In this document: positions 40,433-53,937 of the stretch, in pieces
Layout: the number at the start of each line of letters is the position of its first letter
Position numbering within the stretch: the stretch's first letter is position 1
Assembly (NCBI RefSeq): GCF_036884275.1
Contig: NZ_CP145607.1
Span: 1,227,001 to 1,291,000, forward strand
Reading direction: 5' to 3'
DNA: 64,000 bases
From: Sphingomonas kaistensis
GTDB lineage: Bacteria > Pseudomonadota > Alphaproteobacteria > Sphingomonadales > Sphingomonadaceae
Made by a program: the position numbers and the translations under genes
Notes under the pieces: generated by a model
Told to the model about the DNA's origin: nothing
The model's input: only the letters and a program-made list of their open reading frames with translations
Databases searched by the model: none

Positions 40433-40948
40433 TTACGCCGCTTCGGCCGCCGCATAGGCGCCGAACACGCGAGCGAGCATTGCGCCCGGCTCGTTGATGG
40501 TCCGGGCAATCTTGCTCGCCGGCGCCTGAAGAAGGCCGATGAGGGTGCCGCGGAGTTCATCAAGGCTCGGAAGCTCAGCCAGCGCCTTGATGCCGTTCAC
40601 GTCGAGAACGGTATCACCCATCGCGCCGCCCAGAACCTCGAACTTGTCGGTGGTCTTGGCGAAGTCCACCGCGACCTTTGCGGCCGCGACGGGGTCGATG
40701 GACGTAGCGAGGGCCGTCGGGCCCTTGAGCAGCTCACCGATCGGCTGATAGCGGGTGCCATCAAGCGCGATCAGGGCGAGGCGGTTCTTCGCAACCTTGA
40801 ACTGGGCTCCGGCGTCGCGCATCCGCAGGCGAAGGTCGGTGGACTGGGCCACCGAAAGGCCGAGATTGCGGGTGACAACCACCACGCTGGTCTCGCCAAA
40901 CACCTGCTTCAGTTCGGCAACCAGATCAGCTTTTTCGTTGCGATCCAT
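40433..40948 (-). CDS. rplJ: 50S ribosomal protein L10
   Basis: 171 residues from ATG 40948 ([20 protein letters not shown]) behind a GGAG site. The N-terminal domain binds 23S rRNA; the C-terminal helix anchors L7/L12 dimers. In other bacteria L10(L7/L12) represses its own mRNA through a structured leader, and such a leader is present upstream. Confidence 0.98.
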
Positions 40949-41180
40949 GCCAACTCCAAACAAATGGTCATCAGCCACGAGTGGCTGGCGACCGGCTTCA
41001 TGACCCGAATGCAAAACGCATCCGGGAGCTCGTGTCCGGGGGTTGGGAGGCGCGTGCGGGAGAAACCGCACGACAACGCGGGCATAGGCACCGCGAAAAT
41101 CTCTCTTCCCCGTCTAGGCTGGACATTAAGCTCTCGAAAAAGAGCACCAACTGTCTCGGACGGTGTTTCCGGCAAGCCGG
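40949..41180 (-). promoter_or_regulatory. Structured rplJ leader (candidate L10 leader)
   Basis: About 230 bases of untranslated sequence precede rplJ. On the minus strand, AGCCAC-TC-GTGGCT forms a stem inside an outer GGTC/GACC pairing, close to the ribosome site. Farther up, GTGCGG-TTTCTC-CCGCAC makes a second stem. The position and structure suit L10-mediated autogenous control. Not verified against a covariance model. Confidence 0.5.
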
Positions 41181-41231
41181 GAACGAGGGCGCCAATAGCA
41201 GAAAATGCCGCGCGATCAACCCGGGCGGCGC

Positions 41232-41804
41232 TCAGCCGAACATCTCCAGCAGATTGACCAGCATCGCGTCGCCGTGAGTGGTGAGGATGCTTTCGGGATG
41301 GAATTGCAGCCCGGCCTGAAGCGCCGCCAAGTCGCTGAACGCCATCGCCATCCCATCGACCGCCGCATGAACCGTGAAGCGCGGCGGGAGGTCGCGGGTG
41401 CAGAGGCTGTGGTAACGGGCGATCCGGGCCGGTGAAGCGATGCCGGCGAAGGGGCCGGCGCCATCATGGTCGAGCAGCATCGACTTGCCGTGCACCGCAT
41501 CGGGCGCGCGGGTGACGGTGCCGCCGGCTTCCGCGACGATCGCCTGGTGGCCGAGACAGATGCCGATCAGCGGCACGCGGCCCTTGGCCAGTGCGATCAA
41601 TTCGAGGCAGCAGCCCGAGGATTGCGGGGTGCCGGGGCCGGGCGAGATCATCAGGAGAGCGCCGAGCGCCTCGGCCTCGGCCAGCGCGGCGGCGGCGGCG
41701 ATGCTGTTGCGGCGGACGTGCACGATTGCGCCGATCCGCTCGAGGCTTTCCACCAGGTTGAAGGTGAAGCTGTCGAGATTGTCAATAAGCAGGACGGGCT
41801 TCAT
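41232..41804 (-). CDS. trpG: Anthranilate synthase component II (glutamine amidotransferase)
   Basis: 190 residues, class I amidotransferase: MISPGPGTP, nucleophile Cys83 in GICLGHQ, and the His/Glu pair in LQFHPES near the C-terminus. It supplies ammonia to TrpE. Its ATG overlaps the trpE stop (ATGA at 41801-41804), which supports pairing with this trpE rather than with a pabB. TrpG can serve both folate and tryptophan synthesis. Confidence 0.9.
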   Translation of the reverse strand: MKPVLLIDNLDSFTFNLVESLERIGAIVHVRRNSIAAAAALAEAEALGALLMISPGPGTPQSSGCCLELIALAKGRVPLIGICLGHQAIVAEAGGTVTRAPDAVHGKSMLLDHDGAGPFAGIASPARIARYHSLCTRDLPPRFTVHAAVDGMAMAFSDLAALQAGLQFHPESILTTHGDAMLVNLLEMFG

Positions 41805-43291
41805 GCGCCGAGCACTCCGAGCAGGGCCGAGGCTTTGGCGCGTGTTTCCTCGGCCTCGGCCTGCGGCACGCTGTCATGGACCACGCCGGCCCCGGCGCGG
41901 ACTTCGGCAATGCTGCCGCGCACGAGGGCCGAGCGGATCACCACCGCGGTGTCCATCCGGCCGTCGCCGCCGATCCAGCCGATCGCTCCGCCATAGGGCC
42001 CGCGGCGCCTCGCCTCGGCGGCGCGTAGCAGTTGGGTGGCGCGGATCTTGGGGGCGCCGACCAGTGTGCCGACGTTGAGGCAGGCGGCGAGCGCGTCGAA
42101 GGCGTCGTAACCGGGGCGCAGCGTGCCGGTGACCGACGAGACGAGGTGCATGACCCGGGCGAAGCGCTCCACCGTCAGCAGCTTTGCGACCCGCCGCGTG
42201 CCGGGCAGCGAGACGCGGGCGACGTCGTTGCGGGCGAGATCGACCAGCATCATGTGTTCGGCCAGTTCCTTGCCGTCGAGCCGCATCTCGGCTTCCATCC
42301 GGTCGTCGGCGTCGGGGCTGGCGCCGCGCGGACGGGTGCCGGCGATGGGCTTGACCTCCACGGTGCGTCCGCTGGTGCCGCCGGGCGAGAGGCGAACGCT
42401 GGTTTCGGGGCTGGCGCCGAGCAGAGTCCAGTCACGGTCGGCAAGATAGAAGCGATAGCTTGCAGGCTCGGCCTCGCGCAGGCGGGCGTAGGCGGTGAGC
42501 GGGTCGGGGCAAGGGCCGGTAAAAGTGCGGCTGGGGACGATCTGATACACTTCGCCGGCGGCGATCTCCTCCTTGAGGCGCGTGACGAGCGCGGCGAAGT
42601 CGGCGTCGGAGAGATCGGGTTCGAAGCTTGCGGGCCGATCCGCGACCGTGGGAGCGGACGTCACCGGTTCGTCAGGGGCCGACAAGGCGGCGAGCCCTTC
42701 CTCCAGACGTAGGGCGGCGTCGTTCACATGCCGATCGTCGGAGCCGAAGGCCGTGCACAGCAGCCGCGCGGCGCCGCCCGGCGCAATGGTCAGCAGCGTG
42801 TCGGGCACGAAGAAGACGAACTCGGGAAAGTCGGCGGGCGGGCCGTCGGGCATCGTCTCGCCCCACGCCGCGAGATCGAAGCCGGCGACGCCGAGCAGCA
42901 CGGCGCCGAACGGCTCCCCGCGCGGTGCGGCGGCGGCGTCGAGCAGGGCGCGGAGGGCGTGGAGCGGCTGGGGGCCGAGCAGGCGTTCGGCCGCATCTTC
43001 GCTCTTGGGGTGGGCGAAGGTGAGCAGCAGGCGGTCGGCCCGCCGCTCGCTGATCGCGGGCGATTGAACGGCGCCGAGCAGCGCCTCGCCATTGGCGTTC
43101 AGCGCTTCCAGCACGATGGTGCCGTCGCGCGCCTCGGCCCGGACGCAGGCCCGGCCCATGACCAGGCGCTGGCCGTCGGGTGCTTCGAACAGGCCGGTCG
43201 CCGGCCGCCCCCCGCCCAAGGCACGATAGGCGGCGAGCGGATCGATCCCCGCGGGCAGGCGGCGGGCGAGCACCCGCGCTTCGAGCCTCAC
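41801..43291 (-). CDS. trpE: Anthranilate synthase component I, enteric-type
   Basis: 496 residues from GTG 43291, overlapping the aroF stop (GTGA). The chorismate-binding half has [14 protein letters not shown], the anthranilate-synthase form [21 protein letters not shown] and [20 protein letters not shown]. The N-terminal [15 protein letters not shown] lines up with E. coli CGDRPATLLLESAD, and [10 protein letters not shown] with LSGNGEALL. This places it with the enteric-type TrpE group. The residue matching E. coli Ser40, part of the tryptophan feedback site, is Ala37 here. It makes anthranilate from chorismate with TrpG. Operon aroF-trpE-trpG under a leader attenuator. Confidence 0.9.
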
Positions 43292-44301
43292 AGCTGGCGG
43301 CCCACCGCGCCTGCCACCGCCCCGATCGCGCCCATCAATTGTTGGAACTGATCGGGATAAAGCGACTGCGCGCCGTCGCTCCACGCCTTGGCGGGATCGC
43401 GGTGGACTTCGATCATCAGCCCGTCGGCGCCGGCCGCCACCGCGGCGAGGCTCATCGGCGGCACGAGATCGCGAATACCGGTGCCGTGGCTGGGGTCGAC
43501 CACAACCGGCAGGTGGGTCTTGCCCTTCACATAGGGTACGGCGTTCAAGTCGAGCGTGTTGCGGGTCGCGGGTTCGAAGGTGCGGATGCCGCGTTCGCAC
43601 AGGATGACGTTGGGGTTGCCGGCCGCCAGCAGATATTCGGCGGCAAGCAGCCATTCCTGGATGGTGGCGCTAAGGCCGCGCTTCAGCAGCACCGGCCGTC
43701 CGGCGGCGCCGACCGCGCGGAGAAGCGCGTAATTCTGCATGTTGCGGGCGCCGATCTGAAGGCAATCGGCGGCTTCGGCGACATGGGATACGTCGACCGT
43801 GTCCATCACCTCGGTGACGATCGGCAGGCCGAGATCGTCGCCGACTTCGCGCAGGATCTTGAGGCCCTCGGTGCCGTGGCCGGCGAAACCATAGGGGCTT
43901 GTGCGCGGCTTGTAGGCGCCGGCGCGAAGCAGGGTGGCGCCCGCCGCCTTCACCGCCGAAGCGGTCTCATGCAGCTGGTCGGGGCTTTCCACCGCGCAGG
44001 GGCCGGCGACCACCGCCAGGCGGTCGCCGCCGATGGTCACGCCGCCAACATCGACCAATGTGTCGTGGGCCTGCAGCTCTCGGCTGACGAGCTTGTAGGG
44101 GGCAAGGATGGGCTTAATGCTTTCCACCGCCGGATCGCCGTCGAGCGCCAGTTCGGCGAGCACGCGTTCGTCGCCGAGTGCACCGAGCACGACCCGCTCG
44201 GCACCAGGCATGTGGAGCGGCTTCAGCCCTGCGTCTGCGATCTTCTTGAGCAGGCGTTCGGCCGAGGAGGCGGGGGCTTCGGGCTTGAGGACGATGATCA
44301 T
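43288..44301 (-). CDS. aroF: 3-deoxy-7-phosphoheptulonate synthase, type I-beta
   Basis: 337 residues: an N-terminal ferredoxin-like regulatory domain of about 70 residues (MIIVLKPEA...) and the barrel with [39 protein letters not shown] and VVDPSHGTG. It condenses PEP and erythrose-4-phosphate, the first shikimate step. The N-terminal FL/ACT-like domain is the allosteric module of this subclass. It is the first gene behind the trp leader, so aromatic flux is tied to Trp-tRNA supply. Confidence 0.9.
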
Positions 44302-44345
44302 GAAAAGGTTCCTGGCGGTGGAGAGGGCGGGACCGGCAGGACAAG

Positions 44346-44370
44346 AAAAAACCCGCCGGGTGAGGGCGGG
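44346..44370 (-). terminator. trp attenuator terminator
   Basis: RNA stem CCCGCC (44370-44365) with GGCGGG (44357-44352), loop of 7, followed by six U (44351-44346). It lies 44 bases before the aroF start and after the leader peptide gene. The 5' arm can instead pair with GGCGG at 44425-44421, making termination conditional. Confidence 0.85.
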
Positions 44371-44401
44371 CGGGAGAGCGCTTCAGCTGGGCAAAAGGCC
44401 C

Positions 44402-44482
44402 TTAGCGCTCCACCGGCACGCCGCCGTGAACGCTAAACCACCAGGTGGCGGCAAGGACGGTCAGGGCGGCGGGACGAAGCAT
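44402..44482 (-). CDS. trpL: trp operon leader peptide
   Basis: A 26-residue open frame: MLRPAALTVLAATWWF, then SVHGGVPVER and TAA. Trp14-Trp15 are tandem codons at 44443-44438. Just before them lies GCCGCC (44452-44447), and 13 bases after them GGCGGC (44425-44420), the two halves of a pause stem. Stalling at the Trp codons would cover the first half and free the second to pair with the terminator's 5' arm. No ribosome site precedes the ATG. The likely -10 element ends 7 bases before it, so the message may be leaderless, as described for trpL of Sinorhizobium. Confidence 0.85.
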   Translation of the reverse strand: MLRPAALTVLAATWWFSVHGGVPVER

Positions 44483-44489
44483 GGCGTGC

Positions 44490-44518
44490 TTGAAAGCGGA
44501 AACGGTCCAACAGGTCAA
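44490..44518 (-). promoter_or_regulatory. Candidate promoter of the trpL-aroF-trpEG operon
   Basis: TTGACC (-35), 17 bases, TTTCAA (weak -10), reading on the minus strand. A start site would fall at or next to the trpL ATG, which fits a leaderless leader peptide. Proposed from sequence only. Confidence 0.45.
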
Positions 44519-53861: not shown

Positions 53862-53937
53862 TGGCAGGGGCAGAGGGACTCGAACCCACGACCCTCGGTT
53901 TTGGAGACCGATGCTCTACCAACTGAGCTATACCCCT
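53862..53937 (-). tRNA. tRNA-Trp (CCA)
   Basis: A 76-base cloverleaf on the minus strand: acceptor AGGGGTA/TGCCCCT, discriminator G, encoded CCA, D-loop AGCTCAGTTGGTAGAGC, anticodon CCA (53902-53904) and T-loop GGTTCGAGTCC. It precedes the secE-nusG block, as in many bacteria. Confidence 0.97.

Follow-up and report, generated by a model that had tools for sequence, protein, structure and literature searches.

A probable tryptophan attenuator ahead of aroF–trpE–trpG in Sphingomonas kaistensis and its relatives

Tryptophan attenuation is a textbook mechanism whose standard examples begin with trpE. On the minus strand of Sphingomonas kaistensis, a short Trp-containing frame stands ahead of a DAHP synthase gene, aroF, followed by trpE and trpG, which raises the questions of whether the three genes are under a ribosome-mediated attenuator and what it would mean for the enzyme of the first shikimate step to be encoded by the first gene behind a Trp leader. 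We analysed this locus within the window, by which we mean the whole 64,000-nucleotide (64 kb) stretch of contig NZ_CP145607.1, together with its host genome (2.79 Mb, one contig) and loci of related bacteria. An earlier note on the window had placed a leader frame, Trp codons, four pairing segments and a U run here, and each of their coordinates was correct on re-reading the sequence. The features are as follows.

44513..44518, minus strand: −35-like box TTGACC, beginning 36 nt upstream of the leader ATG
44402..44482, minus strand: predicted Trp leader peptide ORF, read from the sequence (ATG, 26 codons, TAA), peptide MLRPAALTVLAATWWFSVHGGVPVER
44447..44452, minus strand: segment 1, GCCGCC, proposed in the earlier note as the 5′ arm of a pause hairpin; a paired region in the predicted fold
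44438..44443, minus strand: tandem Trp codons TGG TGG, read from the sequence
44413..44425, minus strand: segment 2, GGCGGCGTGCCGG, including GGCGGC at 44425-44420; putative base of the antiterminator, with GGCGNGC kept in relatives
44404..44411, minus strand: 5′ arm GGAGCGCU of the upper antiterminator stem in the predicted fold
44375..44382, minus strand: 3′ arm AGCGCUCU of the upper antiterminator stem in the predicted fold
44351..44371, minus strand: predicted intrinsic terminator hairpin GCCCGCC-CTCACCC-GGCGGGT (segments 3 and 4), with conservation and covariation
44370-44365 and 44357-44352, minus strand: segment 3, CCCGCC, and segment 4, GGCGGG, read from the sequence
44346..44351, minus strand: six-T run after the terminator stem, read from the sequence
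43288..44301, minus strand: aroF, type I-beta DAHP synthase with a ferredoxin-like N-terminal domain, 337 aa
41801..43291, minus strand: trpE, anthranilate synthase component I, with a GTG start that overlaps the aroF stop and a divergent N-terminus
41232..41804, minus strand: trpG, anthranilate synthase component II (TIGR00566, 156.1 bits), overlapping trpE

The leader was compared across 37 aroF loci, of which 35 were from the genus (the window included) and the other two each represented a further genus of the family. At 36 of these loci aroF was preceded by a tandem-Trp leader ORF, the 37th being truncated by a contig start 113 nt before aroF, and at all 37 by a terminator; the Trp-Trp pair that the earlier note had wanted checked in close relatives is therefore kept. 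Outside the Trp codons the leader peptides were strongly divergent (for example WWF, WWRW and WWW), so it is the Trp codons that are conserved.

AroF of this type, sought at E 1e-60 and with the host counted, was present in 35 of 71 genomes of the genus, 4 of 149 of the family and 21 of 396 of the order. At seven distant loci of the order (L020–L026), no tandem-Trp ORF was found within 300 nt upstream of the AroF match, a negative that says little because five of the seven matches start within a frame of more than 700 aa. None was found before the match at nine class-level AroF loci besides the window either (10 of 385 genomes matched), eight of the nine having matched the later part of AroF only. 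The Rfam Trp_leader model RF00513, which requires 41 bits, gave no match to the window leader or to the leaders at L010 and L144; it scored L014 at 29.9 bits (E 0.026), L147 at 29.8, L146 at 40 and E. coli at 93.1. The related leader at L014:1349-1438 also gave a weak match to Rfam RcsR1 (25.6 bits, cut-off 60), which we take to be the same RNA as rhizobial rnTrpL.

In 32 of the 36 leaders a TTGA(C/T) or TTGGC box began 35–37 nt upstream of an in-frame ATG, the exceptions being L006 (41 nt), L036 (39 nt), L041 (no box) and L034 (TTGACC 35 nt upstream of a GTG in frame). Some leaders, several in number, have two or more ATGs in frame. A −35-like box 36 nt before the ATG would make RNA start about at the ATG itself, and the leader transcript is thus probably leaderless, as the earlier note had suggested from the window. 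An SD-like motif was seen before 1 of 35 leader ATGs, compared with 17 of 35 aroF ATGs. The 35-locus set, used for this motif count and for the spacing, alignment and folding results below, drops L034, whose box fits a GTG and not an ATG start, and L035, whose contig begins 113 nt before aroF; ATGs in this set were chosen with a preference for a TTG about 36 nt away, so that the set's own tally is biased, and the counts of 36 leaders in 37 loci and 32 boxes in 36 leaders are free of that bias. Taken alone, the window's box-to-ATG pattern was not significant (6 matches against 5.54 expected). The start proposed for the window leader agrees with S. meliloti rnTrpL, for which RNA is described as starting at the trpL ATG (PMC7298713), and with the leaderless transcripts of Zymomonas mobilis, reported as 119 of 2,675 TSS–gene pairs (PMC7566282). 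That the attenuator has a 5′ UTR with a ribosome binding site, and is not leaderless, would suit the weak conservation of −10-like positions among the leaders and a consensus promoter scan that found none, but we consider it unlikely given the box spacing, the single SD-like motif and these published leaderless RNAs.

Behind the probably leaderless leader, AroF matched TIGR01361 (390.2 bits) and NF006421 (477.5 bits), as well as PF00793 and PF18152. The window TrpE fell below every NCBIfam TrpE cut-off shown, coming closest with PRK13564 (466.6 of 471 bits), and was the only TrpE found in the host genome; a second copy was rejected, the other chorismate-binding protein being a PabB-type fusion. 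Overlaps of 4 nt join aroF to trpE (GTGA) and trpE to trpG (ATGA), confirming the description of three genes each overlapping the next. No terminator-like site was found in window 40850-41232, between trpG and same-strand genes that we read from their ORFs as L10 and L7/L12, so attenuated transcripts might run on into ribosomal protein genes. A tRNA-Trp (CCA) gene at window 53862-53937 (minus strand), about 9.4 kb upstream of the Trp leader, is probably there by coincidence.

Elsewhere in the host genome (L144) lies a trpD operon with the order trpD–trpCF–trpB–trpA–SDR–type II DAHP synthase–aroA, its genes separated by short gaps or overlapping. This operon has a second Trp leader before trpD (L144:4692-4754, plus strand; host contig C1, about 952.7 kb), whose peptide MIRNWHHWRNIETAARWRWR contains four Trp codons, none adjacent, and which is followed by a terminator and preceded by TTGAC 36 nt before its ATG. 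Both host DAHP synthase genes are downstream of Trp leaders. AroF was rejected as the only DAHP synthase, as the type II enzyme is present (the other type I match is a KDO8P synthase), and being one of two it does not support, as it was put, the idea that the aroF leader sets total aromatic flux; a version of that idea survives because the type II gene is behind the second Trp leader, subject to internal promoters. The type II enzyme (L144:10105-11193, plus strand) is short, at 363 aa, and scored 346.9 bits with TIGR01358 against a cut-off of 614.7, with a mid-profile stretch unmatched. Short forms of type II DAHP synthase are not known to carry regulatory parts. In stretches from 17 other genomes (15 behind trpC, 2 behind aroF–trpE), the type II gene came after trpA and SDR in four (G310, G295, G469 and G510); two had SDR–aroA without it (G472 and G436), G471 had SDR only, and the rest had neither within the stretch.

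The placing of trpD in a second operon bears on another reading, in which the Trp-dependent leader acts also, or mainly, in trans through its peptide or its terminated RNA, for instance on the trpD operon. Such action is on record for S. meliloti, where rnTrpL is described as destabilizing trpDC mRNA in trans besides its part in attenuation (PMC7298713), and a duplex between the leader RNA and the trpD start region was predicted in the host (z −2.07). This is, however, a single weak z-score, for GC-rich RNA and from one genome. The duplex as predicted takes in nearly the whole RNA and lacks a compact site, and the host trpD, unlike S. meliloti trpDC, already has a leader of its own; we therefore regard a trans role as improbable, and as something that would be additional to attenuation and not a replacement for it.

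Within the window, searched on both strands, there were 7 TGGTGG ORFs starting from ATG and 40 terminator-like sites, and the leader was the sole case of such an ORF followed by a terminator; 20 dinucleotide-shuffled 64 kb windows gave a mean of 0.15 such pairs each. Across the aroF loci, the leader stop lay 20–43 nt before the terminator arm in all 35 measured. Terminator-like sites alone are common (19 on the window's minus strand) and a UrcA-family gene lies upstream of the leader on the same strand as aroF, but the recurrence of the tandem-Trp ORF, its spacing from the terminator and the scarcity of such pairs in shuffled windows leave very little room for the view that an ordinary terminator, free of regulation, merely separates the UrcA-family gene from an aroF operon driven by a promoter of its own, with a Trp-rich ORF there by chance. 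Together, these results make it very likely that a ribosome-mediated tryptophan transcription attenuator, real, conserved and of a known kind, controls aroF–trpE–trpG.

The predicted fold of 44344-44483 had an energy of −66.3 kcal/mol (z −3.58). Terminator pairing held in 95.7% of cells of the 35-leader alignment, and 17 cells were changed on both sides, a figure as high as which was seen in 0 of 500 shuffles. These two-sided changes fell mostly at one pair, 115–139 (GC at 19 loci, AU at 12, GU at 4), and the number of terminator pairs bearing a two-sided change, which was two, was not above shuffles (255/500). The covariation that the earlier note had looked to in relatives is thus found in the terminator when cells are counted, and does not stand out when covarying pairs are.

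That note's four segments were also right in sequence and position, but its antiterminator, a plain duplex of segments 2 and 3, calls for refinement: in the window the bare duplex was no better than shuffles (z 0.10), and it was weak over the 35 loci, where z averaged −0.64, with 28 loci below zero and 4 of them below −1.64. Compared with shuffles, the antiterminator as a whole had a mean stability z of −1.36 and was below zero at 34 of 35 loci; for the window alone it was not significant, 9 of 100 shuffles being equally stable. In the folding predictions the antiterminator is probably larger than GGCGGC:CCCGCC, with the upper stem GGAGCGCU/AGCGCUCU sitting atop it, and the MAFFT alignment shifts this upper stem between groups of loci. 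A full GGCGNGC followed the Trp codons at 23 of 35 loci, starting 21–32 nt from where the tandem Trp codons begin, and stood in reading phase 0 at 10 of them, phase 1 at 9 and phase 2 at 4. As it is kept in all three phases, it is conserved as RNA and not as peptide.

A stall model, in which the ribosome footprint is assumed, indicated at 35 of 35 loci that placing the ribosome at the Trp codons instead of the stop stabilized the RNA through segment 3 by at least 5 kcal/mol. For the trp leader of E. coli, which served as positive control, the values were −15.6 (Trp codons) versus −2.4 (stop), the same behaviour as that of the aroF leaders. In the model, the 5′ terminator arm was at least half paired upstream at 35 of 35 loci when the ribosome was stalled, and still at 16 of 35 when it was released. 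At equilibrium with a modelled stalled ribosome, a quantity that the E. coli control of stall-model energies does not cover, the window terminator formed with probability 0.90, and the probability was below 0.5 at 8 of 35 loci. With the terminator favoured at equilibrium even under stalling, the switch must rely on the order of folding. A hairpin switch between antiterminator and terminator is likely on this modelling, though computation does not prove it.

We propose that RNA polymerase would start at, or within 1–2 bases of, the leader ATG and that a ribosome would load on the leaderless 5′ end. With charged tRNA-Trp scarce, the ribosome would stall at the Trp codons and cover segment 1, and segment 2, of GGCG type, would form together with its overlying stem before segment 4 is made; the segment 2 structure would sequester the terminator's 5′ arm, and aroF–trpE–trpG would be transcribed. 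With charged tRNA-Trp plentiful, the ribosome would reach the UAA and cover segment 2, the 3:4 hairpin would form, and termination at about 44346 would release a small RNA of about 137 nt. The aroF–trpE–trpG operon would supply the Trp branch with its own DAHP synthase and, given the second Trp leader before trpD–trpCF–trpB–trpA, both halves of the pathway would follow the same signal.

Several known systems share parts of this arrangement. E. coli trpL (RF00513) likewise has a Trp-Trp leader ORF, alternative hairpins and a terminator before the first structural gene, but there trpE follows the leader with no aroF between, and the window leader receives no RF00513 score. The trpLE(G) leader of S. 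meliloti (rnTrpL/peTrpL) is, like ours, an alphaproteobacterial Trp leader in an organism with trp genes in more than one operon, and in the account given of it heads trpE(G) without a DAHP synthase, whereas the window leader heads aroF (PMC7298713). In Corynebacterium glutamicum, a DAHP synthase gene, aroF, is described with a putative leader-peptide attenuator, but one with Phe-Tyr-Phe in place of Trp and separate from the trp operon leader (PMC4046766). The uORFC-13-1 motif of Acholeplasma, from another lineage, also combines a uORF and a terminator stem before aroF, and the available portion of its source carries no Trp-leader description (PMC8632094). DAHP synthase genes have been noted adjoining trpA in three cases in Sargasso Sea data (PMC2395257) and at the end of the trp operon in Simkania (PMC3937554). 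Our search of the open-access literature turned up no account of this leader in sphingomonads, nor of any trp unit that opens with aroF behind a Trp leader, which does not establish that such an account is absent from print.

The closest counterparts were in Gammaproteobacteria. Enterovibrio sp. ZSDZ35 (L146) has a leader peptide ending in AWWWHSQ, a terminator, an aroF product 63% identical to that of the window (the best among the named matches listed) and trpE; Ferrimonas balearica (L147) has a leader peptide ending in AWWWRSQT, a terminator, an aroF product 61% identical and trpE. Both differ from our organism in being gammaproteobacterial, and their TrpE proteins fall in the same wider clade as the window TrpE. 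The 14-mer before E. coli trpL, presumably the TrpR operator, occurred at one other locus among 275, the Enterovibrio one (an exact copy, L146:1257-1270), so repression and attenuation may both act on aroF–trpE there. TrpR control has been predicted for a Vibrionales gene named ‘aroF2’ (PMC5343134).

Among the matches listed for 80 named aroF loci, TrpE lay behind aroF within the flank at four: those of Enterovibrio, Ferrimonas, a Kangiellaceae MAG and a gammaproteobacterial MAG. Three of the four had a tandem-Trp leader ORF and a terminator upstream, the Kangiellaceae leader being more distant (−383), with another hairpin ahead of aroF; the fourth had a terminator only, on a contig that starts 110 nt before aroF. 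The earlier note's remark that aroF under a Trp leader is less usual applies to the family (4 of 149 genomes have this AroF), but some Gammaproteobacteria have the arrangement too.

Ordinary TrpE in the family differed in both setting and tree position. PF04715 matched 142 of 149 family genomes, two of which (G044 and G053) carry the aroF-linked kind with weak scores. Directly upstream of ordinary trpE, a Trp-rich ATG ORF with a terminator was found at 0 of 30 loci (the 30 best-scoring of the 142 genomes); L086, L090, L096 and L105 had a W-rich ORF without a terminator, and at many of the ordinary loci another gene ends close to trpE. Attenuation as a general property of family trpE is accordingly not supported. 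In a TrpE tree of 51 rows, with a midpoint root and only 5 gammaproteobacterial rows, aroF-linked TrpE joined E. coli and the four gammaproteobacterial aroF-linked TrpE proteins with support 99/98 and stood apart from the family's ordinary TrpE (33 of the 37 aroF-linked loci, L046–L049 being absent, and 12 of the 30 ordinary loci were in the tree). This grouping and the leader–aroF–trpE order in Enterovibrio and Ferrimonas suggest transfer of the unit. The simplest reading of the sequences is that leader–aroF–trpE was transferred from Gammaproteobacteria and displaced the native unit, the direction not being proven; that trp operons move laterally between bacteria has long been a theme of the literature.

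Within the genus, the operon occurs in three states. In the first, trpC and aroF share a strand, with trpC some 4 kb downstream (13 of 35 aroF genomes), and G077 has the order aroF–trpE–trpG–trpD–trpCF–trpB–trpA; AroF is better read from such gene orders as the trp operon's own DAHP synthase. In ten of these genomes a scan from aroF to trpC gave a single tandem-Trp leader, the one ahead of aroF; the remaining three have trpD behind trpG, and no leader was found there. In the second state (21 aroF genomes), trpC is elsewhere or on the other strand, and 20 of the 21 have a second leader and terminator before trpD, G477 being without. One further aroF genome, G500, had no TrpC match.

In the third state, seen in 36 of 71 genus genomes, an AroF match is absent; one of the 36, G508, has TrpE of the aroF-linked type near a contig end. 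The remaining 35 gave no strong match to aroF-linked TrpE and none to PF04715, a profile that misses 16 of 36 genomes having aroF-linked TrpE (the window's included), so that its absence counts only against ordinary TrpE. Thirteen of the 35 gave matches to aroF-linked TrpE of 2e-33 to 5e-41 in the C-terminal half only, as host PabB gives, and 22 gave none at 1e-30. TrpC was present in 29 of these 35 genomes without AroF and a strong TrpE match, and full Trp auxotrophy of the aroF-less genomes is thus not supported. A Trp-rich leader and terminator preceded trpD in 27 of the 29, some with a GTG start and one (G372) with two Trp codons that are not adjacent; the two without were G492 (contig end) and G507. 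The G335 leader, of the third state and ending in GWWWRSPERWRARG, is nearly the same as the G473 leader, of the first, which suggests loss of aroF–trpE–trpG from behind a leader. Genomes that lack AroF and TrpE matches and keep an attenuated trpD may, on their gene content, depend on anthranilate with Trp control retained.

This attenuator is unusual in where it stands, in being repeated ahead of the separated part of the operon and in its uneven history across the genus. The first gene behind it encodes the enzyme that opens the shikimate pathway, and the separated fragment has a leader too. We tentatively offer a joint reading, which we hold to be possible but not the favoured outcome, in which an acquired leader–aroF–trp operon replaced native trpE and then broke up into attenuated fragments, with both DAHP synthases and aroA gated and half of the unit lost in part of the genus. 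The breakup would have been modular, each fragment keeping or gaining its own leaderless Trp attenuator, and if the reading is true then access to the entire shikimate pathway is controlled by Trp-tRNA charging in the window's clade. About half of the genus would have lost aroF–trpE–trpG and kept an attenuated trpD–trpCF–trpB–trpA, growing on outside anthranilate, or on an unrecognized source, under Trp control. Attenuated trpD without a recognized anthranilate synthase makes anthranilate cross-feeding a testable prediction. With its intact, split and half-lost versions, the genus holds a natural series for the gain, retention and duplication of an attenuator during operon breakup, and it also suits the question of whether the supply of Trp is enough by itself to limit the common aromatic pathway.
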